Assembly: GCF_002973535.1 (NCBI RefSeq)
Contig: NZ_PVEP01000004.1
Location: forward strand, 131,501-195,500
Direction: 5' to 3'
Length of the DNA stretch: 64,000 bases
Source of the DNA: Albidovulum denitrificans
Lineage (GTDB): Bacteria; Pseudomonadota; Alphaproteobacteria; Rhodobacterales; Rhodobacteraceae
The position numbers and the translations under genes are program-made. Below, piece after piece: positions 8,568 through 51,565 of this stretch (position 1 is its first letter; each line of letters begins with the position of its first letter). Under the pieces are notes generated by a model. That model saw only the letters and a list, made by a program, of their open reading frames with translations. It was not told where the DNA came from and did no database searches.

Positions 8568-8870
8568 ATGTCTTCCCGTAGTTCGCTTGTTATCGGAGCT
8601 GTCGCCGTGCTGATTGCGGGGGCGGTCGGCTACTATGTCCTTAAGGGCAGCGATACCGCGACCGCTCCGGTGGCAGATCAAAGCCAGACAACGGCGCCGG
8701 CCCAATCAACCGCCGCGAAACCGGCGGCGACGGAACCGGCCGCATCGGCCAGCTCGGGTGCCGCGCCGGTCGAGAGCGCACCGACCGAGGCCGCGCCCTG
8801 CACGCAATATACCTGGAACGGCGAAGGCTGGGCCTGCACCGGTGCAGCCGCAGTGAGCGGCGCCAACTGA
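8568..8870 (+). CDS. Small membrane-anchored periplasmic protein with Ala/Pro linker and CTQYT motif
   Basis: A 100-residue protein of no recognised family. Residues 7-25 form one membrane segment (or uncleaved signal), residues 28-77 are a low-complexity Ala/Pro/Thr/Ser linker, and the end is a short tail CTQYTWNGEGWACTG with Cys78 and Cys90, which could form a disulfide in the periplasm. The tail shares CTQ-aromatic-T with the two WVCTQWT motifs of the Met-repeat protein at 9701, suggesting a common partner or ligand. A strong terminator follows at 8901, so it is a separate transcript from the operon starting at 9317. The ATG is preceded by agagagagcagagtc. Confidence 0.65.
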   Translation: MSSRSSLVIGAVAVLIAGAVGYYVLKGSDTATAPVADQSQTTAPAQSTAAKPAATEPAASASSGAAPVESAPTEAAPCTQYTWNGEGWACTGAAAVSGAN

Positions 8871-8900
8871 TCCCACCCCCCCCCCAAAGCGGTGGTACCG

Positions 8901-8940
8901 GAAGGCCCTGGGCATGCGAATGCCCGGGGCCTTCTTCTTT
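8901..8940 (+). terminator. Strong intrinsic terminator
   Basis: A 15-bp stem, 8901-8915 pairing with 8920-8934 with one G-U pair and a GCGA loop, is followed by ttcttt. It ends the transcript of the small anchored protein and isolates it from the operon that begins at 9317. Confidence 0.85.
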
Positions 8941-9316
8941 CGCGGCGGCGGTGGCGGGCGATTCGCGGGTTCGGGTGCTTTCGCGGCTCCCGTTTACCGG
9001 GAATCCGCGGGCCGGGCCGCCGTTTCAGGACCGGCGGCAATTTCGCGTCGTTATGACGCATGACAATGTGTCAGCGCCAAAATGACAGCATGTCCGGGGC
9101 CGGTCGGGTTTTTCCTTTACCTTTTCGCAACCCTGTCCCCTGCGTGACGAAATGGCAGGGATCAGGTTGGGTGACAGATTTCTAACCCACTCAAAACAAA
9201 CAAAAAATGTTTGATTGGCCGCAACAAGCGCCCATAGGTTCCCCATCACCGCACAGACCCCCGAGCCACGTTGGAAGGGGCGTCTGGCAGCGGTATTGCC
9301 AAAAGGGGAGCTCAGG
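8941..9316 (+). promoter_or_regulatory. 376-bp regulatory region of the Met-repeat/molybdoenzyme operon
   Basis: No gene is seen here. Two candidate elements stand out. First, a perfect palindrome CAAACA-N5-TGTTTG at 9197-9213 in a locally A-rich stretch could be an operator; it overlaps TTGATT (9211-9216), which could be a -35 box with a poor -10 near 9234. Second, TGGCAGCGGTATTGCC at 9285-9300 has GG and GC exactly 12 bases apart, as in sigma-54 promoters, but would start RNA near 9311, leaving almost no leader before ATG 9317. The linked regulator lacks the sigma-54 contact loop, so the second site may be coincidental. Confidence 0.45.
9197..9213. promoter_or_regulatory. Palindromic operator candidate CAAACA-N5-TGTTTG
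   Basis: A perfect 6-bp inverted repeat with a 5-base A-only spacer in an otherwise GC-rich intergenic region, 104 bases before the first gene of the accessory operon. It is a plausible binding site for the NtrC-type regulator encoded at 18869, whose Fis-type helix-turn-helix would bind as a dimer. This is inference from position and symmetry only. Confidence 0.4.
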
Positions 9317-9604
9317 ATGCGTGCTGTTTCCAAGAAACTTACGATTGCGGTCCTGGTCCTGCTTCCCACGGTGCTTCAGGCGCAGGAGCTTTTCATCGCG
9401 GGCGTGCATCCCGGCGAAAGACCGGCGAATGCGCCTGTTGTCACCGACTATCCCAAGGATGCCGCCTGGTTTGAACGGGCGCTGCACGGCATCACTGAGC
9501 CGCACCCCGACAGTCTTCGTTTCCTCGAATCCCAGGGGGCGTGGTTCACGCCGTTCGACCGGCCCGGAATGACGGGTCCCTACGACATCCGCGATTGGCA
9601 TTGA
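9317..9604 (+). CDS. Small secreted protein of unknown function
   Basis: A 95-residue protein with a clear cleavable signal sequence (residues 1-22, ending VLQA before QE). The mature part has no cysteines and is rich in Pro, His and aromatic residues, with a C-terminal segment GAWFTPFDRPGMTGPYDIRD. I recognise no family. It is the first gene after the 8941-9316 regulatory region and lies 96 bases before the Met-repeat gene, so it is likely part of the same periplasmic system. ATG 9317 follows gctcagg, a weak site. It could be an accessory or chaperone of the redox enzyme. Confidence 0.65.
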   Translation: MRAVSKKLTIAVLVLLPTVLQAQELFIAGVHPGERPANAPVVTDYPKDAAWFERALHGITEPHPDSLRFLESQGAWFTPFDRPGMTGPYDIRDWH

Positions 9605-9700
9605 GCAAACTGCCCCGGCCGCCCTTCGTGGCCGGGGTGGGAGTGTGCGGTCAGCGCGCAATTTCTGCGAGCGGCCGGAACAACAGTTGGAGAAAGCCAG

Positions 9701-10657
9701 ATGAAAATGAAATCTCACACGCTCGCAGCGGTTCTGTGCTCCGCAGCCCTGTTCGCCGCGCCGACCGTCGCAAGCGCTGACAGCATGTCGGGCATGGATG
9801 GCATGTCCGGTATGGGCGGTATGTCGGGTATGTCCGGCATGGGTGGCATGTCCGGTATGGGCGGCATGTCGGGTATGTCCGGCATGGGTGGCATGTCCGG
9901 TATGAGCGGCATGTCCGGCAATGGCGGCATGAGCTGGGTCTGCACCCAGTGGACCAGCACGGGTATGGGCGGCATGTCGGGTATGTCCGGTATGGGTGGC
10001 ATGTCCGGTATGGGCGGTATGTCCGGCATGGGCGGCATGTCCGGCATGGGCGGCATGTCCGGCATGGGCGGCATGTCCGGCATGGGCGGTATGGCTGGCA
10101 TGGACGGCATGTCGGGCATGGGTGGCATGTCCGGTATGGGCGGCATGTCGGGCATGGGCGGCATGGCTGGCATGGACGGCATGTCGGGCATGGGCGGTAT
10201 GGCTGGCATGGACGGCATGTCGGGCATGGGCGGTATGGCTGGCATGGACGGCATGTCGGGCATGGGTGGCATGGCTGGCATGGACGGCATGTCCGGTATG
10301 GGTGGCATGTCGGGCATGGGTGGCATGTCCGGTATGGGCGGCATGTCCGGTATGGGCGGCATGTCCGGTATGGGTGGCATGTCCGGTATGGGCGGCATGT
10401 CCGGTATGGGTGGCATGTCCGGTATGGCCGGCAATGCTTCCGGCTGGGTCTGCACCCAGTGGACCGTCTCCGGTCCGGCGATGTCGGGCATGAGCGGCAT
10501 GTCCGGTATGGGCGGCATGTCCGGTATGGGCGGCATGTCGGGCATGGGTGGCATGTCCGGTATGGGCGGCATGTCCGGCATGGGCGGCATGTCGGGCATG
10601 GGTGGCATGTCCGGTATGGACGGCATGTCGGGCATGGACGGTATGTCCGGCAACTAA
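9701..10657 (+). CDS. Exported Met-Gly-Ser repeat protein with two WVCTQWT motifs
   Basis: A 318-residue protein: signal sequence 1-26 (cut after VASA), then three blocks of degenerate M-S-G-M-G-G repeats in which roughly every third residue is Met. The blocks are separated by two copies of WVCTQWT, with Cys81 and Cys251 the only cysteines after the signal. Variant units carry Ala or Asp (MAGMDG). The reading frame is supported by the signal peptide, the RBS ggagaaag, and residues that differ from the repeat only at the motifs. Such a Met density suggests metal binding (Cu), haem or quinone contact, or an oxidant sink that cycles through Met sulfoxide. The gene sits just before the cytochrome and a sulfoxide-reductase-type enzyme. 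I know of no named family. Confidence 0.8.
   Translation: MKMKSHTLAAVLCSAALFAAPTVASADSMSGMDGMSGMGGMSGMSGMGGMSGMGGMSGMSGMGGMSGMSGMSGNGGMSWVCTQWTSTGMGGMSGMSGMGGMSGMGGMSGMGGMSGMGGMSGMGGMSGMGGMAGMDGMSGMGGMSGMGGMSGMGGMAGMDGMSGMGGMAGMDGMSGMGGMAGMDGMSGMGGMAGMDGMSGMGGMSGMGGMSGMGGMSGMGGMSGMGGMSGMGGMSGMGGMSGMAGNASGWVCTQWTVSGPAMSGMSGMSGMGGMSGMGGMSGMGGMSGMGGMSGMGGMSGMGGMSGMDGMSGMDGMSGN
9785..10650 (+). repeat. Tandem 9/18-bp coding repeats (atgtccggtatgggcggc type)
   Basis: Degenerate tandem units of nine and eighteen bases in three blocks (9785-9929, 9965-10431, 10481-10650) encode the Met-Gly-Ser protein. Because unit length is a multiple of three, slippage changes copy number without breaking the frame, so length polymorphism between strains is expected. 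The periodicity opens long false frames on both strands. Confidence 0.95.
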
Positions 10658-10674
10658 CTCAAGGCCGTGACAAT

Positions 10675-10701
10675 CTGCAGGGCGGGCTCTCCGCCCTGCA
10701 G
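10675..10701 (+). promoter_or_regulatory. 11-bp perfect stem-loop between the Met-repeat gene and the cytochrome gene
   Basis: ctgcagggcgg pairs perfectly with ccgccctgcag around a gctct loop, 18 bases after the repeat-protein stop and 30 bases before the cytochrome start. There is no following T-run. It probably protects the upstream mRNA or attenuates downstream expression, so that the structural Met-rich protein is made in excess over the enzyme. Confidence 0.7.
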
Positions 10702-10730
10702 GCACATGAAATACCGCTCGGGTTGGAACC

Positions 10731-12221
10731 ATGAAAAAGCTTGAAGGCCTGCTGGGCATCGTGGCGGGCATATTCTTTTCGCTCACCGCTCTCATTGCCC
10801 TGATGGTGATCGCAACACTGATCTACAAAGGGCCTGCGCGCCACGCTACGGCGGTGGCCCAATCGGCCGCACCGGCGGATGCCGCACCCGCTACCCAACC
10901 CGAAACCGCTGCCGCGCCCGCGCCGACCGCCGAGGTCAAGACCGCCGGGGTGAGTGTCGCGGCGGGCGAAAAGGTTTTCAAGAAATGCAAGGCTTGCCAC
11001 ACGGTCGATGAGGGCGGCAAGAACACCACCGGACCCAACCTCTGGGATATCCTCGACCGCGGCATCGCCGCGCATGAGGGGTTCGCCTATTCCGACGGGA
11101 TGTCGGCGAAGGCCGGGGACAGCTGGGACGTGGCGCTTCTCGACCAGTATCTGACCAAGCCGAAAGATGTGGTTCCGGGGACCAAGATGGCCTTCGCGGG
11201 CCTGCCCAAGGAAGAGGACCGGCAGAACGTCATCGTCTATCTCGCCAGCCTGTCTGCCAACCCGAAAAGCGCCGAGGCGCTTGGCTTTGCAGCCGCGAGC
11301 GGAACCGAGGTCGCCGCCGCTGAAAGCCCGGCCGCCGACGGCCCGGTTGAGATTGAGCCTGTCCCCTACCCGGACGGCGTGACCTATACCAACCCGCCCG
11401 CGCCGACGGATGCCGAAATCGCGGCCTCGGCCGCGGCGGTGGAGGAGATCCAGAAGGAACTCGCCACGATGGATTACGAGCGTGCGCAGTATGATCCGAT
11501 CCATTTCGCACCCGCGATCAACACTGCCACGAACGAGGAATGCCTGACCTGCCACCAGGAGATCATGGACCACAAGCCGCGCGAGACGTCGCAGGCGGGG
11601 GTTGCCGCCACGGACACGATCGCGTGGTACCAGACGCTGGATACCTACACCCAGGATCAGGCGAGCTTTCACTGGCGGCATATGGAAAGCGATTTCGCCA
11701 AGGAGGTGATGAACCTTCAGTGCGTCTTCTGCCACAAGGGCAACGACCCGCGTGAGGAAAGCCCCGACATGCTGCCGACCCGCGCCGCGTTCAGCGCCCC
11801 CGCGCAGCCGGAGTTCACCTTGCGCAAGATGGTCAACCCCTCGACCACCTGCCTGCTCTGCCATGGCGCGATGCCCGACCCCGAGAACATCATGGGTCTT
11901 GCGGGCGACTGGCCCGAGGCGCGCGTCGATCTTGAGACACCTGAGGCCCCGAATGGCTGCCTGAGCTGCCACGCGGAGTTGTTCCGTACCGAGCGTCACA
12001 ACGTGTCCTACCTGAAGGCCGCGAATATCGAGGAGCTGGCCCGCGCCGGGTCGTCGGACAGCTGCTACGGCTGTCATGGCGGGCGGCAGTGGTACCGCAT
12101 CTCCTACCCCTATCCGCGCCATGCCTGGCCCGGAATGGATGACAGCGAGGTCCCGGACTGGGCGGTCAACCGCCCGACGGAATCGGACCCTGAATACGCC
12201 CTGCCCGCCGCCGCGCAATAG
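10731..12221 (+). CDS. Membrane-anchored hexahaem cytochrome c (class I domain fused to a pentahaem domain)
   Basis: A 496-residue protein with one N-terminal membrane helix (about 8-31), an Ala/Pro linker, and a class I cytochrome c domain (about 75-178) with CKACH at 86-90 and the axial-Met candidate PGTKM (Met153). A second linker leads to a C-terminal region with five more CxxCH sites: CLTCH 271, CVFCH 331, CLLCH 374, CLSCH 410 and CYGCH 445. Six c-type haems are predicted, all periplasmic. It lies directly upstream of the molybdoenzyme and most likely passes electrons between the membrane or soluble cytochrome pool and that enzyme, replacing a DmsC-type membrane anchor. The fusion of CycM-like and pentahaem parts is unusual. 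Direction of electron flow is not evident. Confidence 0.85.
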   Translation: MKKLEGLLGIVAGIFFSLTALIALMVIATLIYKGPARHATAVAQSAAPADAAPATQPETAAAPAPTAEVKTAGVSVAAGEKVFKKCKACHTVDEGGKNTTGPNLWDILDRGIAAHEGFAYSDGMSAKAGDSWDVALLDQYLTKPKDVVPGTKMAFAGLPKEEDRQNVIVYLASLSANPKSAEALGFAAASGTEVAAAESPAADGPVEIEPVPYPDGVTYTNPPAPTDAEIAASAAAVEEIQKELATMDYERAQYDPIHFAPAINTATNEECLTCHQEIMDHKPRETSQAGVAATDTIAWYQTLDTYTQDQASFHWRHMESDFAKEVMNLQCVFCHKGNDPREESPDMLPTRAAFSAPAQPEFTLRKMVNPSTTCLLCHGAMPDPENIMGLAGDWPEARVDLETPEAPNGCLSCHAELFRTERHNVSYLKAANIEELARAGSSDSCYGCHGGRQWYRISYPYPRHAWPGMDDSEVPDWAVNRPTESDPEYALPAAAQ

Positions 12222-12231
12222 GAGAGAGATC

Positions 12232-14781
12232 ATGGACGGAAGCATCACCAACGGGTCCCCGCAAAGCACGTCCCGCCGCGCGTTCCTGAAGGCATCGGCG
12301 GCGACGGCGGCGACCGGGCTTGTCCTCGGCGCCGGGGCGAAAGAGGCCAAGGCCTTTGCCTATGAGCCCTATCCCCGCGACGACGATCTTGAGACGGTCG
12401 TGACAAGCTGCGCCCACAACTGCGGGTCGCGTCACATGCTGGTCGCGCACAAGAAGGGCGACGTCATCGTCCGCCTGTCGACCGACAACGGCACCTATCA
12501 GGGCGACGCCTACGGCACCGATACCGAGGAAAAGCCGCAGCTGCGTGCCTGTCTGCGCGGCCGGTCCTACCGCTCGCGGCTCTATTCGCCTGAGCGGCTG
12601 CTGTACCCGATGAAGCGCGTCGGTGCGCGCGGCGAGGGCAAGTTCAAGCGCGTAACCTGGGACGAGGCGCTGTCCGACATCGCCCAGCGGATGGTCTATC
12701 TGCGCGACACCTACGGGCCGACGGCGCTTCTCGACCAATCTTATGCCGGGGCGTCCTATGGCGTCCTGCATAAGTCCGACCAGATCGAGGGCCTTCTTGG
12801 GCGCTTCATGGGTATGTTCGGGTGTCGTACCTCGAGCTGGTCGGTGCCGTCCTATCAGGGGACCACATTCTCAAGCCGGACGACCTTCGGTACGATCCAG
12901 GACGGGAATGAGGATGACGCCTTCGCGCATTCGAAGCTGATCATCATGTGGGGCTGGAACCCGGCCTATACGTTCCACGGCGGCAACACGTTCTATTACA
13001 TGCGGATGGCCAAGCAGCGCGGCTGCAAGTTCGTCCTTGTCGATCCGCAATATACCGACTCCGCCTCGGCCTATGACGCGTGGTGGATTCCGATCCGGCC
13101 CAATACCGATGCCGCGATGATGGCCGGGATGGCCTATCACATCTGGGACAACGACTGGCACGATCAGGCGTTCATCGACCGCTTTGTCCAGGGCATGGAC
13201 AAGGGGACGATGCCCGGCTGGGCGCAGGGCCAGGAAAGCTTCAAGGACTATATCTTTGGTGAGCGTGACGGGGTCGCGAAGACGCCGGAATGGGCGGCCG
13301 AGATTTGTGGCGTCAAGGCCGAGGACATCAAGAAACTGGCCGAGATGTATGCCACGACCAAGCCCGCGGCGCTGAAGGCGAGCTGGTCTCCGGGGCGGAA
13401 CGCCTATGGCGAGCAGTATAACCGCATGGCCGCCGCGCTTCAGTCGATGACGGGCAATATCGGTATCCTTGGCGGTTGTGCCGAGGGTGTTGGCAAGGCC
13501 TGGCACGCCGAGGCGGTGGCCTATCCCTATGACCAGTTCGCGAATGTCTGGTACGCCTCGATCAAGTCCGACCGCTGGGCGCATTGCGTCCTGAACTACC
13601 CCAACCTCAAGCGCGAGGAAATCGGGCTTTGGCCGCGGATGGACCAGCTTGACGGGGTGGCGCCGAATATCCGCGGGATCTTCTGGCAGGGGTCGGACTG
13701 GCTGAACCAGTTGACCAACATCAACAAGGAAATCGCCGCGATCCGCAAGCTGGACAGCTATGGCGAGGGCGAGAGCCTTCTGGTCTGCATGGACAGCACG
13801 ATCACCCCGACGGGGATCTGGGCCGACTATCTTCTGCCCATCGCCACCCATTTCGAACGGCATGATGTGGCGCTGCCCTGGTACAAGGGGCATTACTACA
13901 TCCACCGTCCGGTGGTCATTCAGCCGCTGGGCGAATCCAAGACCGACTTCCAGGTCTTTACCGAGCTTGCCTATCGCCTTGGTTTCGGTCCCGGCTATAA
14001 CCCCCGCGCGACGCGCGACTACTTCAACGACCCGACCCAGGTCGATGAGGCCTATCTGGTCGCCTGGTGGGACAATGTGCGCCATCATCAGGGGGTCGAG
14101 TGGGACTGGGAGACGTTCAAGAAGCGCGGAGTCTACAAATTCGTCCTGCCCGAGCCGCATGTCGCCTTCCGGCCGCAGATCGAGCAGGGGATGCCGTTCG
14201 AGACGCCGTCGGGCAAGATCGAGATCTTCTCCACCACGCTTGCGCAGACGCCGGACTGGACCCGGACGCAATATGGCTACGAAATCCCGGCGATCCCGAA
14301 ATGGATCGAGCCGTGGGAAAGCCTGAACCACCCCAAGGCCAAGGAATTCCCCTTCCACATGATCAGCCCGCATCCGCGTTGGCGGACGCACTCGATCTTC
14401 AACAACATCCCGTGGCTGCGTGAGACCTTCGCGCAGGAAACGATGATGAACGCCTCGGATGCCGAGAAGATGGGTATCCGCACCGGCGACACGATCGAAT
14501 GTTGGAACGAACGCGGGCGGGTCATCACGCCGGTCTATGTCAGCGAACGCTGCATGCCGGGGGTGGTGGTCCTGCACGAAGGTGCCTGGATGGACCTTGA
14601 TGAGGATGGCGTCGACCGGTCCGGCAACCCGGACTTCCTGACCCTCGACAACCCATCTCCTGCGGGGGCCTTCGCCTATAACACGGTGCTTTGCAACGTG
14701 AAGAAAAGCGATCTTAACCACCGGCCCGGCTGGGACAAGCTGTCGACCGCGCGGAGCCATGTGTTCCGTCGCGACCTTTGA
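12232..14781 (+). CDS. Tat-exported DmsA-like molybdopterin oxidoreductase, catalytic subunit
   Basis: An 849-residue DMSO-reductase-family enzyme. A Tat signal (SRRAFLK, 14-20) sends the folded protein to the periplasm. The sequence RACLRGRSYRSRLYSPERL followed by PMKRVGARGEGKF is close to E. coli DmsA, and Ser207 (VPSYQG) aligns with the DmsA molybdenum-ligating Ser. The FS0 cluster site reads C60-x3-C64-x3-H68 ... C107, so the third Cys of DmsA is His here. Followed by a DmsB-like subunit and a TorD chaperone, but no DmsC. Likely substrates are sulfoxides or N-oxides; oxidation of a thioether is also possible because the partner is a cytochrome. ATG 12232 follows ggagagagatc. Confidence 0.88.
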   Translation: MDGSITNGSPQSTSRRAFLKASAATAATGLVLGAGAKEAKAFAYEPYPRDDDLETVVTSCAHNCGSRHMLVAHKKGDVIVRLSTDNGTYQGDAYGTDTEEKPQLRACLRGRSYRSRLYSPERLLYPMKRVGARGEGKFKRVTWDEALSDIAQRMVYLRDTYGPTALLDQSYAGASYGVLHKSDQIEGLLGRFMGMFGCRTSSWSVPSYQGTTFSSRTTFGTIQDGNEDDAFAHSKLIIMWGWNPAYTFHGGNTFYYMRMAKQRGCKFVLVDPQYTDSASAYDAWWIPIRPNTDAAMMAGMAYHIWDNDWHDQAFIDRFVQGMDKGTMPGWAQGQESFKDYIFGERDGVAKTPEWAAEICGVKAEDIKKLAEMYATTKPAALKASWSPGRNAYGEQYNRMAAALQSMTGNIGILGGCAEGVGKAWHAEAVAYPYDQFANVWYASIKSDRWAHCVLNYPNLKREEIGLWPRMDQLDGVAPNIRGIFWQGSDWLNQLTNINKEIAAIRKLDSYGEGESLLVCMDSTITPTGIWADYLLPIATHFERHDVALPWYKGHYYIHRPVVIQPLGESKTDFQVFTELAYRLGFGPGYNPRATRDYFNDPTQVDEAYLVAWWDNVRHHQGVEWDWETFKKRGVYKFVLPEPHVAFRPQIEQGMPFETPSGKIEIFSTTLAQTPDWTRTQYGYEIPAIPKWIEPWESLNHPKAKEFPFHMISPHPRWRTHSIFNNIPWLRETFAQETMMNASDAEKMGIRTGDTIECWNERGRVITPVYVSERCMPGVVVLHEGAWMDLDEDGVDRSGNPDFLTLDNPSPAGAFAYNTVLCNVKKSDLNHRPGWDKLSTARSHVFRRDL

Positions 14782-14801
14782 TCCGAGCGAGGAGAGAGAA
14801 G

Positions 14802-15476
14802 ATGGCAAACCAAGTCGACAAGGCCCGGATCAAGGAAAACGTCGCGCGCATGAAGCGCGAGACCTACACCCCGGTGGTGCCGGACATGCAGATGGGGTTC
14901 GTCCACAACAACGTGGACTGCATCGGCTGCCGCGCCTGCGAAATCGCCTGCAAGGACAAGAACGGGCTGGCGGCCGGCCCGCGCTTTCGCCGGGTGCAAT
15001 ATATTGAGGGCGGGACCTATCCCGAGGTCTTCGCCTTCAAGATCAACATGTCCTGCAACCATTGCGCCGAACCGGCCTGCCTTCCGGCCTGCCCGACCGG
15101 CGCGATCTTCAAGCGCAAGGATAACGGGGTCGTCGATATCGATTCGACCCTCTGCATCGGGTGCCGCAAGTGCGAGGCGGCCTGCCCCTTTGGCGCGCCG
15201 CAGTTCAACGTGGAACTGAACATCGTCCAGAAGTGCAACATGTGCGTGGATGAGCTTGAGGTTGGCCGTGATCCCTATTGCGTCGCGGCCTGCATGATGC
15301 GGGTTCTCGATGTCGGGCCGATCGACCAGATCGCCGATGGCAGCTATGACACCAAGGCTGTCGGCCCGAATGAGACGGTGGTCCGGCAGGTCCGTTCGAT
15401 GGCGGACCCTGAGCTGACCAACCCGTCGATCCGCTTCGTGCCGCATTCGAAGGGGATTGTTCAAGATGGCCAGTGA
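14802..15476 (+). CDS. DmsB-like four-cluster iron-sulfur subunit
   Basis: A 224-residue ferredoxin-type subunit with four cysteine groups, CIGCRACEIAC, CNHCAEPACLPAC, CIGCRKCEAAC and CNMCVDELEVGRDPYCVAAC, consistent with four [4Fe-4S] clusters as in DmsB, TtrB and PhsB. It has no signal of its own and should be carried through the Tat system with the catalytic subunit. It would connect the FS0 cluster of the molybdoenzyme with the hexahaem cytochrome. ATG 14802 is 20 bases after the preceding stop with a strong gaggagagag site; its end overlaps the chaperone gene by 11 bases, indicating translational coupling. Confidence 0.92.
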   Translation: MANQVDKARIKENVARMKRETYTPVVPDMQMGFVHNNVDCIGCRACEIACKDKNGLAAGPRFRRVQYIEGGTYPEVFAFKINMSCNHCAEPACLPACPTGAIFKRKDNGVVDIDSTLCIGCRKCEAACPFGAPQFNVELNIVQKCNMCVDELEVGRDPYCVAACMMRVLDVGPIDQIADGSYDTKAVGPNETVVRQVRSMADPELTNPSIRFVPHSKGIVQDGQ

Positions 15477-16212
15477 CGCCCGCACCCTTGGCTCTGATGC
15501 GGCGTCACGGCTGGCGGACCTGGCCGATGTCGTCTCGGTCCTGGCGCGATTTCACGACCGTGAGGTCGATGCCAGGACGATCGACTGGCTCAGGCAGTTC
15601 GACGTCGCCGGTTTCTTCGCCGAGGTTCTGACCTCGGCGCCGGGACGGGCGGCGGCGAAGGCGTTCACGGCAGCGGTGGTGGCGCTGCCGGAACGTCCCT
15701 CCGCCGAGGTGATTGACGACCTCGCCGCGGAATACGCCTCGATCTATCTTAACCATGCCTATCGCGCCTCGCCCAGCGGATCGGTCTGGCTGACCGAGGA
15801 CCGGCTGGAACGGCAGATGCCGATGTTCGACGTGCGCGAGTGGTATGATCATTACGACATCTCCGTCCCCGACTGGCGCCGCCGGGCGGACGACCATATC
15901 GTGCCAGAGCTTGAATTCGTGGCCCATCTCTGCCGTTTCGGCGCGATGAGCGGGGCCGAGGATGCGGCGGGGTTCCTTGACGGGCATGTCCTGAACTGGA
16001 TGCCCGAGTTTCTGGAAAAGGCCGCGCGTCCGGCGCAATGTGCGCTTTACCGCGCGATCCTGCAAATGACCGACGCGGTTCTGGACGAGTTGAGGGATGA
16101 GCTTGAGGCGATCACCGGGCGCGCGCGGCAGGTGGCTTTCCCGACCTCGGACGACGCGCAGCAGGCCGAGACGGCGGCGCCCTACTTTCCCGGCGTCGCG
16201 GAAAGCTGGTAG
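15466..16212 (+). CDS. TorD/DmsD-family molybdoenzyme maturation chaperone
   Basis: A 248-residue all-helical cytoplasmic protein of the TorD family, which binds the Tat signal and folds the apo-enzyme during cofactor insertion. The central segment AAEYASIYLNHAYRASPSGSV and the later DHIVPELEFVAHL (the E-P-D-H-type signature region) fit the family. Residues 220-248 form an extra charged tail. Overlap with the DmsB-like gene and location in the operon support a role dedicated to the molybdoenzyme. ATG 15466 is chosen; a TTG nine bases earlier is possible. Confidence 0.85.
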   Translation: MASDARTLGSDAASRLADLADVVSVLARFHDREVDARTIDWLRQFDVAGFFAEVLTSAPGRAAAKAFTAAVVALPERPSAEVIDDLAAEYASIYLNHAYRASPSGSVWLTEDRLERQMPMFDVREWYDHYDISVPDWRRRADDHIVPELEFVAHLCRFGAMSGAEDAAGFLDGHVLNWMPEFLEKAARPAQCALYRAILQMTDAVLDELRDELEAITGRARQVAFPTSDDAQQAETAAPYFPGVAESW

Positions 16213-16217
16213 GGCGC

Positions 16218-16991
16218 ATGGCGGGGGCGTTGTCCTGGGCGTCGATCCGCCAGGGTACGGCTTACCTGCGGTGCCGACAGGGGCCACGCGCCTTCTGTGT
16301 CGGCCAGATTGACCTTGAAAGGCTGGCGCAGATCTATCTGGCGGGCGTTCTGCACGTCATTACCGCGCCCTGCAACTGCGGCAATCACGCCGAGGGCGCG
16401 GATCGGGTCATCGGGCAGTTCAACGACCTGATCCGGGTCCGCGGCCTGCCCGAAATCAACCATCGTGAGGTCGCGGTGGAGATCGTCCGCAACGGCGCGG
16501 GCGAAAGCATCGATGGCGCCCGTCGCGGGTTCCTGCGTCGGGTCAGCGATGTGGTGGTCGAGGATGAAGAGGCCGCAGAAGACCCGCCCGCCCTTGCCGC
16601 GATCCTTGCTTTCGGGGCCGAGGATCCGAACGTCCCTTACCCCTGGGTGCCGGTCTTCGACGCCGATCTTTGTACCGGATGCAATGGATGCATCAACGTC
16701 TGCCCGGAAGACAGTTTGATCTTGATCACGGCAGAGGATGGCACGGTGTGCTATGGGGCGCGTCCTGAAACGTGCAACGGGTGCGAACTTTGTATGTCGG
16801 TTTGCGAGTATGGGGCGATTGAGCTGCGTGGGATGACCGCGCGCAGCCCCGATATTCCGCTTGTTTCCGGTGTCTGCCGGGCCTGCGGTGTCGACTATCA
16901 CGAACCTGCCGGACGCGAGTCCGCAAGCGGGTTCTGTCCGGTCTGTCGCAGGACCGGGCATCATCGCAAGCTTTTCCAGGTCATTCAGTGA
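16218..16991 (+). CDS. Ferredoxin-like protein with two [4Fe-4S] sites and a C-terminal zinc ribbon
   Basis: A 257-residue soluble protein with no signal. The N-terminal ~125 residues carry scattered cysteines (LRC, FCVG, PCNCG) and no family I can name. Residues ~148-200 hold a two-cluster ferredoxin, CTGCNGCINVCPE and CNGCELCMSVCEYGA. The C terminus is a zinc-ribbon pair, CRACG and CPVC. It is not a standard subunit of DMSO-type reductases. As a cytoplasmic iron-sulfur protein next to TorD it may assist cluster or cofactor loading, or supply electrons for maturation. Stop and the following kinase start overlap (GTGA), so expression is coupled. Confidence 0.7.
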   Translation: MAGALSWASIRQGTAYLRCRQGPRAFCVGQIDLERLAQIYLAGVLHVITAPCNCGNHAEGADRVIGQFNDLIRVRGLPEINHREVAVEIVRNGAGESIDGARRGFLRRVSDVVVEDEEAAEDPPALAAILAFGAEDPNVPYPWVPVFDADLCTGCNGCINVCPEDSLILITAEDGTVCYGARPETCNGCELCMSVCEYGAIELRGMTARSPDIPLVSGVCRACGVDYHEPAGRESASGFCPVCRRTGHHRKLFQVIQ

Positions 16992-18865
16992 TCCGGCTGT
17001 CCCGGAGCGCCACCGCGCGTTTCGGCGCGCTGTCGCTTCAGCGCAAGTTCGCGCTGGTGGCGGGGGCGCTGATGTTTGCCACCTCGCTCTGCTTCCTGAT
17101 CCTTGTCCTTGGGCTGCACCTGAACAGCGTTTCGGCATCGAACGAACGGGCGGTGCGTTCGGTCAACCGGCTTTTGCAGGCAGCGTTGGAAAACGCGATG
17201 CTGAAGCGCGATATTCCGGGGCTGCGAGAGATCATCACCGATCTTGGCGCGCAGGACGGTATTCGCGGGGTGATGATCGTCAACCCCGAGGGAGAGGTGC
17301 GCTTTTCCTCATATGAACAGGACCTCTACAGCACCTTCGACGACCCGGCGCTGACCGAGGCGCTGGCAAGTCAGAGCCAGCAGACGGAGTTCCGTGCGGT
17401 CGGGGGGGTCGATGTCCTTCGAAGCATCAACCCGGTCCTGAACAAGCAGCAGTGCAACGTCTGCCATGGCCTGTCCGCCGATCATCCGGTGAACGGCCTT
17501 CTGGTGATCGACTACGAAACCGCCGGGACGCGGCGTTATGCCCTGATCGGGGCCGCGCTCCTGATGGCGCTTGGCCTTGTCGTCGTGCTGGCGGTTGAGG
17601 GTGGGCTCTGGGTCGCGCTGCGGAAGATCGTCCTGGACCGGGTCGCGCGGCTTGACAGTGCCTTCGCGCAGGTGGGCGCGGGCAATCTTGACGCGCGGAC
17701 CGATGTCGTCGGCGGGGATGAGATCGGGCGGCTGGCGGGGAACTTCAACCTGATGTCGGACCGGCTGGCGATGTCGGTCGATAGGCTGCGGGCCTCGGAG
17801 GCGTTCTTGCAGGACCTGATCGACGCGGTTCCCGACGGCATTCGCGTCATCGGCCCCGATTTCCGCATCATCGTGGCCAACGCCGCCTATCTGCGCCAGG
17901 TCGGCGCCGATCGCGCTTCGGTCGTGGGGCAGCCCTGCCATCTGTCCAGCCATGGACGCGACGCGCCCTGCATCCCGACGATGCGGACCTGTCCGGTGGC
18001 CGCGCTTCTCCATGACCGCACGGAAAGCTTCTGCAAGTTCAACGACCGCCATCTGCGCGACGGCGCTGGCCTGTCGGTCGAGGTTTCGGCAGTGACGGCG
18101 AATATGGTGATCGACGGGCAGAGCGTGCCCTGCGTGATCGAATCCATCCGCGATCTTGAGGCGGAGGTGCAAATCTCCCATTCCGAGCGTCTGTCTGAGA
18201 TCGGCCTTCTGGCCGCCGGGATCGCGCATGAGGTCTATAATCCCCTGTCGTCGATCCGCCTTGCGCTGCGCGCGGTGGCCAACCAGCCGAACCTGACCGA
18301 GGCGACGCGCAATTACCTGTCCATCGCGGATACGGAGATTTCGAGCTGCCAGGGCTTCACCGACGGCTTGCTCAGGCTTGCTTCGCGCCCGTCGCCGCAT
18401 CTGGAACTGGTGGCGCTTCGGGCCGCGATCGTCGAGACGGCAGCGCTTCTGAACTATCAGGCGGAACAATCCGACGCGAAGATCGACATCGACATCGAGG
18501 GGGAGCCGCGCGTTCTGGCCCATGACAGCGAGATCAGGATGCTGGTCTTCAACCTGGTCCTGAACGCGGTTCACGCCATGCCCGATGGCGGCCCCGTCCG
18601 CGTGTCCTGCCGCGCCGACGGGGCGGGACGCATCCGGCTTCAGGTGGCCGATACCGGCGTCGGCATCCCCGAGGATCTGCGCGACAAGGTGATGCTGCCT
18701 TTCTGGACGCGCCGCGCGGATGGCAGCCGGGGGCGGGGCCTTGGCCTGACGATCTGCAACGCCATCGTCGGGGCGCTGGGCGGACAGATCGGGTTCGAAA
18801 GCGAGGTTGGGCGCGGTACGGTCTTTACCGTCGATCTCGCCGATGCCGACAAGAAGGAGGAGTGA
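16988..18865 (+). CDS. Sensor histidine kinase with periplasmic c-haem motif and Cys-rich PAS domain
   Basis: A 625-residue membrane kinase: TM1 about 21-44, a periplasmic sensor domain 45-184 containing CNVCH (Cys156, Cys159, His160), TM2 about 185-208, HAMP to about 263, a PAS domain with the cluster Cys317-His318, His322, Cys328, Cys335 and Cys349, then a HisKA domain with phospho-acceptor His414 (GIAHEVYNPL), N box NLVLNAVHAM and G boxes. Covalent haem in the sensor would report periplasmic redox state or a ligand, and the Cys/His group in PAS could bind metal or act as a thiol switch. The following regulator is its partner (3-base gap). Confidence 0.88.
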   Translation: MIRLSRSATARFGALSLQRKFALVAGALMFATSLCFLILVLGLHLNSVSASNERAVRSVNRLLQAALENAMLKRDIPGLREIITDLGAQDGIRGVMIVNPEGEVRFSSYEQDLYSTFDDPALTEALASQSQQTEFRAVGGVDVLRSINPVLNKQQCNVCHGLSADHPVNGLLVIDYETAGTRRYALIGAALLMALGLVVVLAVEGGLWVALRKIVLDRVARLDSAFAQVGAGNLDARTDVVGGDEIGRLAGNFNLMSDRLAMSVDRLRASEAFLQDLIDAVPDGIRVIGPDFRIIVANAAYLRQVGADRASVVGQPCHLSSHGRDAPCIPTMRTCPVAALLHDRTESFCKFNDRHLRDGAGLSVEVSAVTANMVIDGQSVPCVIESIRDLEAEVQISHSERLSEIGLLAAGIAHEVYNPLSSIRLALRAVANQPNLTEATRNYLSIADTEISSCQGFTDGLLRLASRPSPHLELVALRAAIVETAALLNYQAEQSDAKIDIDIEGEPRVLAHDSEIRMLVFNLVLNAVHAMPDGGPVRVSCRADGAGRIRLQVADTGVGIPEDLRDKVMLPFWTRRADGSRGRGLGLTICNAIVGALGGQIGFESEVGRGTVFTVDLADADKKEE

Positions 18866-18868
18866 CGC

Positions 18869-20245
18869 ATGGCCGAGCCGAACATCATCGTGATCGAGGA
18901 CGACCGCAACCTGAACGCGCTTCTAAGCGGTCAGCTTGCCGAAGAGGGGTTCCGCGTCACCTCGGCCCATAGTTGCCGGGAGGGGCGGGCGCTTCTGGAA
19001 GGGTCAGAGCCGAACCTGATGATCATCGACATTCGTCTGCCCGACGGCGACGGGTTCGAGTTCATTCGGCAATATGGCGAGATCTTCCCGATCATCGTCC
19101 TGACCGCCTATGGCACCGTCGATCAGGCGGTTGAGGCGGTTCAGGCGGGGGCGAGCGACTATCTGCTCAAGCCGATTTCCTTCGACGCGCTCAAGGTCGC
19201 CATCGGCCGCGCGCTGGCGACGGTCGAGCTGAAGCGTGACGTGCAGTACTGGCAGAAGCGGGCGCAGAAGGACCTGAACGTCACCATCGTCGGCAACAGC
19301 CCGAAGGTGGCGCATATGCGCCATCTGATCGAGCTTTATGCCGTCACCGATTCCAGCCTTCTGATCGTTGGCGAAAGCGGCGTCGGGAAAGAGCTTGTGG
19401 CCCATGCGATCCATAAGAAAAGCGACCGCAAGAACGGCCGGTTCGTCGCGGTGGATTGCGATCCGGCTCAGGAAAGCAATGTCGCGCAAGAGCTTTTCGG
19501 CGAGGAACAGACCATGCGCGGCGGCGCCCGGCGCGAGGGGATGCTGGCCATCGCGCAGAACGGGACGATCTATGTCAACAACGTTGCCGAGATGTCGTTG
19601 GCGCTGCAAAGCAAGCTTTTGCGGGTGATGGAGACGGGGACGTTCCGGCGTGTGGGCGGGACGCAGGACCTTGTCACCAATGTCCGCATCCTTGCCGCGA
19701 CCAGCAGCAACCTTCAGGCCCGGATTGCCGATGATCGTTTCCGCAGCGAGTTGTTCTATCGCCTGAACGCTTTCTGCATCGAGGTGCCGCCGCTGCGCGA
19801 CCGGTTGACGGATGTCCCGCTGCTGGCAGAGCATTTCCTGAAATACCGCAACTTCCAGCGCGGGATAGACAAGCGTCTGGCGGCCGACACCATCGCCGCG
19901 CTGACCGATTACGCCTGGCCCGGCAACGTGCGTGAGCTGCGCAACGCCATCGAACGCGGTGTCATCATGTCGGGGCAGGAGGAAGAGATCACCGCCGCCC
20001 ATGTCGGCATCAGCGCGACGCGAAGCGCGGCCGGGGATCATGGCGGCGTGGTTCTGGGCTTTGACTATGAACCGACGATGGAGGAGGTGCGGGACCACTA
20101 CATCCGCATGTTGTTGCGCCGCTATGACGGCAATCGCCGGAAGGTGGCCGGAATCCTCGGTATCAGCGAACGCAACACCTATCGTCTTGTCGGCAAGCTT
20201 GAGGTGGATGGCGAAACGGGCGGCTTGGGTGGCGCGGCGGAATAG
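18869..20245 (+). CDS. NtrC-family response regulator lacking GAFTGA and Walker B acids
   Basis: A 458-residue REC-AAA-Fis protein. The receiver has Asp54 and Lys101. Walker A is intact (GESGVGKE, 168-175). The GAFTGA loop that contacts sigma-54 is absent: ELFGEEQTMRGGA occupies its place. Walker B, usually TLFLDE, reads TIYVNN, so both acids are Asn. The arginine-finger region FRSELFYRLN and a C-terminal Fis-type helix-turn-helix (RKVAGILGISERNTYRLVGK) remain. By analogy with Rhodobacter capsulatus NtrC, which also lacks GAFTGA and works with the housekeeping sigma factor, it probably regulates without sigma-54 remodelling. Its target is presumably the 9317-16991 operon. Confidence 0.9.
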   Translation: MAEPNIIVIEDDRNLNALLSGQLAEEGFRVTSAHSCREGRALLEGSEPNLMIIDIRLPDGDGFEFIRQYGEIFPIIVLTAYGTVDQAVEAVQAGASDYLLKPISFDALKVAIGRALATVELKRDVQYWQKRAQKDLNVTIVGNSPKVAHMRHLIELYAVTDSSLLIVGESGVGKELVAHAIHKKSDRKNGRFVAVDCDPAQESNVAQELFGEEQTMRGGARREGMLAIAQNGTIYVNNVAEMSLALQSKLLRVMETGTFRRVGGTQDLVTNVRILAATSSNLQARIADDRFRSELFYRLNAFCIEVPPLRDRLTDVPLLAEHFLKYRNFQRGIDKRLAADTIAALTDYAWPGNVRELRNAIERGVIMSGQEEEITAAHVGISATRSAAGDHGGVVLGFDYEPTMEEVRDHYIRMLLRRYDGNRRKVAGILGISERNTYRLVGKLEVDGETGGLGGAAE

Positions 20246-49721: not shown

Positions 49722-50423
49722 TTAGCCCGCCGCCTCGATCCGGTCGAGAAGCGCGGGAAGCTGGCCGAGATCGTCAATCAGACGGAAACGCGGGGCATGT
49801 TCGGGGGCGGTGTCATGTTCAAGCGCCCAGGTCAGGTCATGGGGGACATGAACGCCCCAGCCGCCCAGTGCCAGAACCGGCAGCACGTCGGATTTCAACG
49901 AATTGCCGACCATCATCGCGGCGTCGGCCCGGATCGCGCGGCGGCGGAAGATCTCGGCATAGACCTCGGGCGTCTTGGTGGAGACGATTTCGACCCCGTC
50001 GAAGACCTCGCCCAGCCCGGACTGCGCGATCTTGCGTTCCTGGTCGATCAGGTCGCCCTTGGTGATGACGAGCAGCGGGTAGCGGCCCTTCAGTTGCGCC
50101 AGCGCCGCCTCGGCATGGGGCAAAAGCTCGATCGGGTGGCCCAGCATCTCGCGCCCCGCCGCGACAATCTCGCCGATGACGGCGCCGGGGACGCGATTGC
50201 CGGTCACCTCAAGCGCGGTTTCGATCATCGAGAGGACAAAGCCCTTGATGCCGAACCCGTAGCGCCCGACGTTGCGCCGTTCGGCCGCCAACAGGCGCTC
50301 CTCCAGATGGTCGCGCCCGGCATAGTCGGACAAGAGGTCGGAGAAGTGATCATGCGTCAGGCGAAAAAAGCGTTCGTGGTGCCAGAGCGTATCGTCGGCG
50401 TCGAAGCAAACTGCGTGAAGCAT
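49722..50423 (-). CDS. HAD-family hydrolase
   Basis: A 233-residue HAD phosphatase with motif I FDADDTLWHHERFF, motif II LLVITKGD, and motif III/IV region KTPEVYAEIF and MVGNSLKSDVLPVLALGG. The substrate is unknown. The ATG at 50423 overlaps the stop of the AT-rich upstream gene (TGATG), so insertion of that gene placed HAD translation under its control. Confidence 0.85.
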   Translation of the reverse strand: MLHAVCFDADDTLWHHERFFRLTHDHFSDLLSDYAGRDHLEERLLAAERRNVGRYGFGIKGFVLSMIETALEVTGNRVPGAVIGEIVAAGREMLGHPIELLPHAEAALAQLKGRYPLLVITKGDLIDQERKIAQSGLGEVFDGVEIVSTKTPEVYAEIFRRRAIRADAAMMVGNSLKSDVLPVLALGGWGVHVPHDLTWALEHDTAPEHAPRFRLIDDLGQLPALLDRIEAAG

Positions 50424-51565
50424 CAATCGAATCGCCCATTCATGTCACACCTTGGCTTTTTGAAACCAATATAGTGCTCTGCAGCCCCAGAAATGAACTT
50501 CAAGTCAGAGAAGCCAGCGGCGAGCGCAAGAGACGATATCCCGGATATGAGATCGAGAACATACATTGGGTCTGGTTCAGAATAGCCCTCGTTCCTAGCT
50601 GCGTAGTTCGGGTTGTAGTTGGTTCGAGACAGGCCGCGAGTAATCGTTTCATCTTTTGACAAATAAAGATGTGACACTGATACAATTGCGGTGCCGTTTG
50701 GCTTTAGTACTCGCCAAGCTTCGGATAGCGCCCGCTCTATACCGAAGTAAGATGACTGGTATGTTTTTAGACAGTAGTAAACATCGAATGTAAGCGTTGT
50801 TGGCAAATCCTCAGCTTCACCGACATTGACATTTCGAAAATGTTTCGTTGCGATTTCCACGGCGCCTGCAGCTATGTCAAAAGCAAAGAACTCTTTAAAT
50901 TTATCGTAAAAACCAACGCCCTCGGGTTTTGAGCCTATTCCAACGCAGATACAGCTCAATTGGCCAATTTCAGGGACTCCCATGAACTGAGAGACAAATG
51001 TAATCTCTTTAAGCCAGTCATTCCCATCGACTTCCCTCTCGTCTGGAGAGTCAATCTTCTTCCCGTACTTGGTGTTAAAGAGTTTGGATCGAGCGTCGGA
51101 AGCGATTGATTTCGCCGTCTCATATGGCATATTTGCAATACTGGAGATGTGATGAGCCGCCCCCTCGATCGAGCGAGAATATATTTGCCTATCTTCTCCA
51201 AAGCTGTAATTTATCTCAGTGAGAATATGGTTCCAGAATAGTTGCGCTGACTTGAGTTCATGAAAAACTGATAGTTTAGCAACGCTATGCTTTCTAATTT
51301 CTTTGTCTAAAGCAGTCCTTAATATATTATAATCCTGATTGCCAGCTTCATCGTGCTTGAAGAAGCATCTGATCAGCCGATTGGCGATTTCTTCATTCAG
51401 GCCTTTGCCTTTTTTGTAATTTATAATTGTATTAACGCTTTTTCTAAGCATTATTGCAATAGCGGCGTTTGTTAGCGGCTCGGATGCCCCTACAGAGTAT
51501 CCGGCGCGCTTCCCCTCTTTCATTAGCTTATTTATAATAGATTGAAGGGTATAACTATTATTCAA
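50423..51565 (-). CDS. AT-rich acquired gene: N-terminal helix-turn-helix fused to a class I SAM-methyltransferase-like domain
   Basis: A 380-residue protein. Residues ~32-70 look like a helix-turn-helix (LTNAAIAIMLRKSVNTIINY). The middle (75-190) is helical and unrecognised. Residues ~205-320 have a Rossmann methyltransferase pattern: motif I VGIGSKPEG (208-216), acidic Asp230, AEDLPTTLTFDVYYCL and the VLKPNGTAIVSVSHLYL strand. It starts with TTG 51565 behind gaggaggg. Codon and base use are strongly AT-rich (51241-51300 has only 22 G/C of 60) in a GC-rich window, implying transfer. Four GTTGTGAT repeats lie just upstream. It could be a self-regulated DNA-binding methyltransferase or defence/addiction gene; no partner is known. 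Confidence 0.75.
   Translation of the reverse strand: MNNSYTLQSIINKLMKEGKRAGYSVGASEPLTNAAIAIMLRKSVNTIINYKKGKGLNEEIANRLIRCFFKHDEAGNQDYNILRTALDKEIRKHSVAKLSVFHELKSAQLFWNHILTEINYSFGEDRQIYSRSIEGAAHHISSIANMPYETAKSIASDARSKLFNTKYGKKIDSPDEREVDGNDWLKEITFVSQFMGVPEIGQLSCICVGIGSKPEGVGFYDKFKEFFAFDIAAGAVEIATKHFRNVNVGEAEDLPTTLTFDVYYCLKTYQSSYFGIERALSEAWRVLKPNGTAIVSVSHLYLSKDETITRGLSRTNYNPNYAARNEGYSEPDPMYVLDLISGISSLALAAGFSDLKFISGAAEHYIGFKKPRCDMNGRFD

Follow-up and report, generated by a model that had tools for sequence, protein, structure and literature searches.

In Azospira, the MrpX/YedY1-YedZ1 system detoxifies hypochlorite by periplasmic methionine cycling, according to the summary in PMC4623255. Enzymes of the dimethyl sulfoxide (DMSO) reductase family also repair oxidized methionine: DorA and BisA reduce methionine sulfoxide (MetO) in proteins (PMC7402097, PMC10653797), and both DMSO and protein-bound MetO are substrates of DorA (PMC7402097), which acts approximately three times faster on the flexible, Gly-rich QWGAGM(O)QAEED than on TTPGYM(O)EEWNK. 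Its SYGW motif has been described as necessary for sulfoxide reduction (PMC7402097). The DmsABC enzyme of Escherichia coli is likewise active on MetO, and hypochlorite induces it (PMC12096835). Here, we analyzed a 64,000-nucleotide stretch of Albidovulum denitrificans contig NZ_PVEP01000004.1 (the window), in which a cluster within positions 8568-20245 encodes an exported methionine-repeat protein beside a multiheme cytochrome, a DmsA-like molybdoenzyme and a two-component pair. The genome falls in the Rhodobacter family group, with Paracoccaceae as its nearest relatives. The open-access literature, to which our search was confined, contained no description of the operon, of the repeat string or of a DMSO-reductase/Met-rich operon.

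As in MrpX/YedY1-YedZ1, an exported Met-rich polypeptide is encoded together with a molybdenum (Mo) reductase, which is a MetO reductase there and is predicted to be one here. However, the reductase of the window is a bis-molybdopterin guanine dinucleotide enzyme of the DMSO reductase family with iron-sulfur (Fe-S) subunits and a multiheme cytochrome, not a YedY/MsrP protein (PF00174); a heme sensor and an NtrC-type regulator are found where Azospira has SigF/NrsF; and the array is strictly M-x-G. By this comparison, the cassette would resemble the MrpX/YedYZ methionine cycle in its working, yet it is not a member: the reductase family, the donor and the regulators differ. Rhodobacter DorA is likewise a periplasmic Mo enzyme with a serine ligand and twin-arginine translocation (Tat) export, but it lacks an Fe-S cluster and a DmsB partner and is not accompanied by a Met-rich protein, and its SYGW is absent here. 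The closest characterized relatives by tree and profile are E. coli DmsABC and YnfEFGH, which share the catalytic and the four-cluster subunit; their first cluster is all-Cys and the quinol dehydrogenase is DmsC, whereas the window has Cys-Cys-His and a c-type cytochrome. MtsZ of Haemophilus influenzae is reportedly a Mo enzyme for MetO that is served by a five-heme cytochrome; it is said to belong to the TorA/TorZ/BisC branch and to lack an Fe-S subunit, and we know of no Met-rich protein that accompanies it. Short M-[ST]-G-M runs also occur in the exported proteins CopA and PcoA, but these are few repeats, interspersed with His and Asp, inside a large oxidase that shows no linkage to the present molybdoenzyme. 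At five loci (L107, L110, L111, L118 and L120), CopA-type multicopper oxidases carry inserts of short M-[ST]-G-M repeats, which may be an independent origin of such motifs.

We propose, with a probability of roughly 60%, that the Met protein is a rechargeable sink that absorbs oxidants outside the cytoplasm and is re-reduced by the molybdoenzyme with electrons from the cytochrome. The central genes are listed below.

9317-9604, + strand: p2, first gene of the operon, an exported protein of 95 amino acids with the consensus PYPxSLxFLxDQGxWxTPFxxPGMTGPYDIRxWH
9701-10657, + strand: Met-repeat protein of 318 amino acids, a Sec signal followed by (M-x-G)n
10731-12221, + strand: membrane-anchored six-heme cytochrome with one N-terminal anchor and six CXXCH motifs
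12232-14781, + strand: DmsA-like molybdoenzyme (PF00384/PF01568; nearest profile TIGR02166 dmsA_ynfE)
14802-15476, + strand: DmsB-like four-cluster Fe-S subunit (TIGR02951, E 2.8e-55)

In the putative mechanism, a sensor kinase bearing heme c and its response regulator would turn the operon on, and the (Met-x-Gly)n protein would be exported in excess, its Met residues absorbing extracytoplasmic oxidants and being converted to MetO. The Tat-exported DmsA/DmsB-like enzyme, supplied through the anchored cytochrome (probably from the bc1/cytochrome c pool), would then reduce the sulfoxides, and the protein could be recharged repeatedly. We favor this reading because DMSO-reductase-family enzymes can repair MetO, because the repeat gene and the enzyme are strictly co-inherited and because a hairpin follows the Met gene. 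The first-pass annotation of this DNA had suggested that the Met-rich protein could be a sink or substrate kept reduced through the cytochrome and molybdoenzyme, and our results support that suggestion in part: the linkage of the genes is observed, and we infer the chemistry, namely that the Met protein is the substrate of the enzyme and present in excess, the direction of the electrons and the identity of the oxidant.

The same annotation had held that a functional link should appear as co-occurrence of the repeat gene with the molybdoenzyme across genomes, and that a repeat gene found widely apart from the enzyme would speak against it. The repeat tracks the enzyme. In 249 genomes of the family, sampled at nearly one per genus, p2, the repeat pattern and the enzyme each occurred in 7 genomes, and these were the identical 7; the chance of such an exact overlap is approximately 1e-13 if the genomes are taken as independent. 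In wider samples of the class (337 genomes) and the phylum (399 genomes), every genome with an array-type repeat had the enzyme. A scan for relatives of the enzyme, with one genome per species, gave 347 candidate loci, from which 80 loci with 76-86% identity were kept, mainly from alpha-, beta- and gammaproteobacteria. The Met-rich gene lay just ahead of those for the cytochrome and the enzyme in 38 of the 40 loci with more than 2.6 kb of upstream DNA, to which this count was limited, and these again spanned alpha-, beta- and gammaproteobacteria. Many other contigs end within the Met array, which is to be expected of a tandem repeat that breaks assemblies. A widespread repeat gene without the enzyme was searched for and not found: the repeat matches seen without an enzyme ortholog (genomes G040, G198, G296, G773, G912 and G926) were short stretches within CopA-type multicopper oxidases or a CopB-like protein. 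Among those examined, the nearest sister clades and one DorA-like locus had no Met-rich neighbor. The outcome of the co-occurrence test clearly favors a functional link between the repeat gene and the enzyme.

The complete cassette is also carried by a conjugative plasmid, pEJ01 of Rhodobacter xanthinilyticus, whose annotation lists the Met protein and p2 as hypothetical proteins. The gene set is best described as a self-contained and horizontally mobile redox cassette common to many proteobacteria. In a Lamellibrachia endosymbiont (L100, 16730-20893), a second, diverged copy of the cytochrome, enzyme and DmsB genes adjoins the standard cluster; it keeps the CAHNCGSRH motif and has no Met-rich gene of its own directly upstream. 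The sequence CP059262.1 (L044) bears the name Exiguobacterium profundum, yet its enzyme falls among those of Rhodobacter and the genome is probably mislabeled.

The mature part of the Met protein comprises 292 residues, of which 87 are Met and 121 are Gly. It contains 86 M-x-G triplets (x being S in 42, G in 30, D in 8 and A in 6), and the Met-Met spacing is exactly 3 in 83 of 86 cases; two [SG]WVCTQWT spacers (9932-9955 and 10442-10465) break the array. A 30-base repeat pattern occurred 27 times in the genome, with all listed places at this locus, and the reversed-pattern control gave 0, which sets the repeat far beyond chance. Across 39 complete arrays, Met made up 27% of residues and 93% of Met-Met pairs were spaced by exactly 3; His was nearly absent (8 in 7,501 residues), and the middle residue varied among S, G, A, E, D, N, K and Q. 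In G220, whose enzyme is 76% identical, the M-x-G pattern is kept and most Ser residues are replaced by P, Y or R. The Met period is thus kept while x varies, and selection appears, from the sequences compared, to act on Met density and spacing. Matches of the Met protein to collagen and adhesin families were judged compositional and set aside. Alternatively, the repeat could be a structural or electron-relay scaffold, a polyglycine-II- or collagen-like fiber that organizes the cytochromes and the enzyme without its sulfur being consumed. The strict three-residue period with Gly, the collagen-type matches and the conserved spacers (GYFKITPQGQIFFYP or WVCTQWT) at intervals are in keeping with a fiber; nevertheless, there is hardly any proline for a collagen helix, and Met would not be needed at every third position if other residues would stack as well, so that we consider a scaffold highly improbable.

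Expression of the Met gene may be set apart from that of its neighbors by a stem located directly behind it.

10675-10701, + strand: perfect intercistronic hairpin CTGCAGGGCGG-GCTCT-CCGCCCTGCAG between the Met and cytochrome genes, with no T tail

A perfect stem of at least 9 base pairs (bp) was found directly 3′ of the Met gene in 34 of 70 loci and in none of the dinucleotide shuffles, compared with stems of the same size in 7 of 281 cases after p2, dmsA, dmsB and the cytochrome gene taken together (Fisher p 5e-21, a value to be read with the related loci not being fully independent). The sequence of the hairpin varies among loci while the stem is kept, and a T tail is usually missing. Intercistronic stems typically stabilize the upstream message or thin downstream transcription. 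A hairpin conserved in this position thus points to a probable surplus of Met protein over enzyme, which is what a sink or bulk substrate would call for.

The molybdoenzyme itself carries the following sites.

12274-12291, + strand: Tat motif RRAFLK
12409-12435, + strand: first Fe-S motif CAHNCGSRH, with His at the third ligand position
12739-12750, + strand: SYAG, aligned where DorA has SYGW
within 12841-12861, + strand: S207, the Mo-ligand serine by alignment

The enzyme scores 607 bits against TIGR02166, below the cut-off of 777.7, and the DmsB-like subunit scores 186.8 bits against TIGR02951, likewise below its cut-off of 214.1. The presence of C60, C64, H68 and the RACLRG Cys places an Fe-S motif in the catalytic subunit, unlike in DorA/TorA/BisC. 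The C-x3-C-x3-H form of the first-cluster motif and the aligned serine Mo ligand were each present in 83 of 83 orthologs besides the query, whereas the third cluster position is Cys in E. coli DmsA, YnfE and YnfF and in three other DmsA-like relatives. Judging by its position, His68 probably ligates the first Fe-S cluster; NarG is a known precedent for a His cluster ligand, at another position. In a 111-protein tree, built by a quick method and containing long branches, the 84 orthologs grouped into a single deep clade (SH-aLRT 100, stem length 2.9), which neighbors E. coli DmsA, YnfE and YnfF and is separate from the DorA/TorA/BisC branch. The clade appears to be an uncharacterized one within the DMSO reductase family. 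The two subunits had been proposed as a Tat-exported pair; the twin-arginine signal was confirmed in the DmsA-like protein, but the DmsB-like protein has no export signal of its own and any Tat export must occur as a passenger of DmsA.

The putative electron donor consists of two parts.

10986-11000, + strand: CKACH of a cytochrome c552-like domain (best Protein Data Bank (PDB) match 9fks_o, E 7e-28)
11541-12077, + strand: conserved five-heme core, five further CXXCH motifs

The five-heme core is kept in nearly all loci; its model (predicted local distance difference test (pLDDT) 71) had no PDB fold match below E 1, and the core had no sequence profile match. The c552 domain is present in Rhodobacterales and some other alphaproteobacteria and is missing from most gammaproteobacterial members, and some gammaproteobacterial loci have instead a separate small cytochrome c downstream of torD. 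Pfam gave no NapC/NrfH-type domain in the cytochrome, and neither a NapC- or NrfD-type nor a DmsC-type quinol dehydrogenase was present in the window operon or the annotated plasmid cassette. The simplest electron route would run from the bc1/cytochrome c pool through the five-heme core and DmsB to DmsA. The flow could also be reversed: the enzyme might be oxidative (for example, on dimethyl sulfide (DMS), as in DMS dehydrogenase, or on a different sulfur compound), passing electrons via the cytochrome to an oxidase, with the Met protein shielding the complex from reactive by-products. A c552-type domain belongs to a class that normally donates to oxidases, and many of the hosts are sulfur oxidizers. 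However, the enzyme belongs to the serine-ligand DmsA branch, whose characterized members are reductases, while DMS dehydrogenase sits in the type II branch, and most gammaproteobacterial members do without the c552 domain; we regard an oxidative role as quite improbable.

Several observations weigh against a rechargeable sink. Two MsrP-family (PF00174) genes lie elsewhere in the genome (C5:67761-68231 and C4:7656-8123), so the host may already have a periplasmic MetO reductase. Two loci, L083 and L093, have the enzyme without a Met-rich neighbor, the only such cases among the well-covered loci. A c552-like donor has a high potential, and MetO reduction from it would be just marginally favorable. 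The SYGW motif is missing, the orthologs having SYAG or AYAG; the substrate preference therefore cannot be read from family membership, although E. coli DmsA likewise lacks SYGW and the enzyme does have Tyr at the position of the DorA Tyr. Finally, Met-only repeats can bind Cu(I), and M-x-G-M motifs occur in the CopA-type multicopper oxidases and the CopB-like protein of the enzyme-less genomes. The last three facts, together with the mostly respiratory roles of DMSO-reductase-family enzymes, would also fit an ordinary respiratory reductase of a small S-oxide, an N-oxide or an oxyanion, encoded beside a Met protein that binds Cu(I) or handles another metal. On the other hand, neither the recurrent neighbor families nor the annotated plasmid cassette showed a copper transporter, oxidase or regulator; the arrays are nearly His-free, unlike copper inserts, in which Met is combined with His and Asp; heme is what the sensor protein carries; and the one-to-one tracking of the repeat with the enzyme clade would be left unexplained. 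We therefore consider a metal-binding role unlikely. In L083 (8597-12550), p2 stands directly before the cytochrome gene, as would result from loss of the Met gene.

In its broadest form, the sink hypothesis describes a widespread, mobile and hitherto undescribed system built around an abundant exported polypeptide, which would act as a rechargeable Met redox buffer and as the sole physiological substrate of a dedicated enzyme clade that is fed by cytochrome c and has a His-ligated cluster; we would give this even odds. If true, bacteria would possess a dedicated protein made to be oxidized and then recharged via the respiratory chain, a principle for which MrpX of perchlorate reducers has, to our knowledge, been the main example so far. 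The hypothesis would also assign a function to a large, so far unassigned clade of molybdoenzymes, the 347 candidate loci, from sediment and water bacteria and from clam and tubeworm symbionts, and would explain an extreme low-complexity protein that is annotated as hypothetical and breaks genome assemblies. The enzyme clade, with its presumed His ligation, would also offer a natural variant for studying how the first cluster of DMSO-reductase-family enzymes is tuned.

Reading frames, Pfam and NCBIfam bore out the gene list of the first-pass annotation, every named gene lying on the + strand within 8568-20245, and delimited a compact + strand operon from p2 (9317) to the response regulator (20245). 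The remaining genes of the operon are as follows.

15466-16212, + strand: TorD-type assembly chaperone (PF02613, E 5.5e-19)
16218-16991, + strand: ferredoxin-type protein with two 4Fe-4S motifs and further Cys pairs, no export signal
16988-18865, + strand: histidine kinase with HAMP, PAS, HisKA and HATPase domains and a weak match to the Mcp40H-20 sensor family
17453-17467, + strand: CNVCH, periplasmic heme-c site of the kinase
18869-20245, + strand: NtrC-type response regulator, GAFTGA loop lost, EEQTMRGG at 19502-19525

A CXXCH motif was present in 54 of 55 kinases from related loci. The GAFTGA-type loop is kept in the regulators of 35 of 54 relatives and is lost in the window and in several Rhodobacterales. 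In the loci compared, sigma-54 promoters go together with a regulator that retains GAFTGA: of the 22 loci with the loop, 14 have a site of the form TGGCAY-N5-TTGC a short distance ahead of p2, and of the 10 without it, 0 have one (Fisher p 0.001; background 0.02 sites per kb); a site is also present in 4 loci whose contig lacks the regulator. Simple sigma-70 promoters were looked for and none was found. An inverted repeat, TGTCA-N9-TGACA, upstream of p2 was considered as a regulator site and rejected, being confined to the window and not conserved.

The single same-strand run that had been described holds for the strand of all genes but probably not for its first member.

8568-8870, + strand: p1, a membrane-anchored, Ala/Pro-rich protein of 100 amino acids that ends in CTQYTWNGEGWACTG (8799-8843)

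Because a hairpin of its own and 446 bp without coding sequence follow p1, it probably forms a unit apart from the neighboring operon. Its end motif recurs in the Met-protein spacers, and comparable short proteins ending in CTQYSWDGVKWVCTSG or CVQYSWDGAKWTCTSG are encoded between the Met and cytochrome genes of L044 and L046; p1 is a probable accessory. The p2 family had no Pfam match, its profile had no convincing PDB match, and an AlphaFold2 model from 39 sequences (mean pLDDT 67) gave no usable fold. An anti-phage role for the cassette was rejected, PADLOC having given no match. Elsewhere in the window, a gene on the - strand (50423-51565) with a methyltransferase-like C-terminal part has a GC content of 0.507, compared with approximately 0.64 around it, which suggests recent acquisition.

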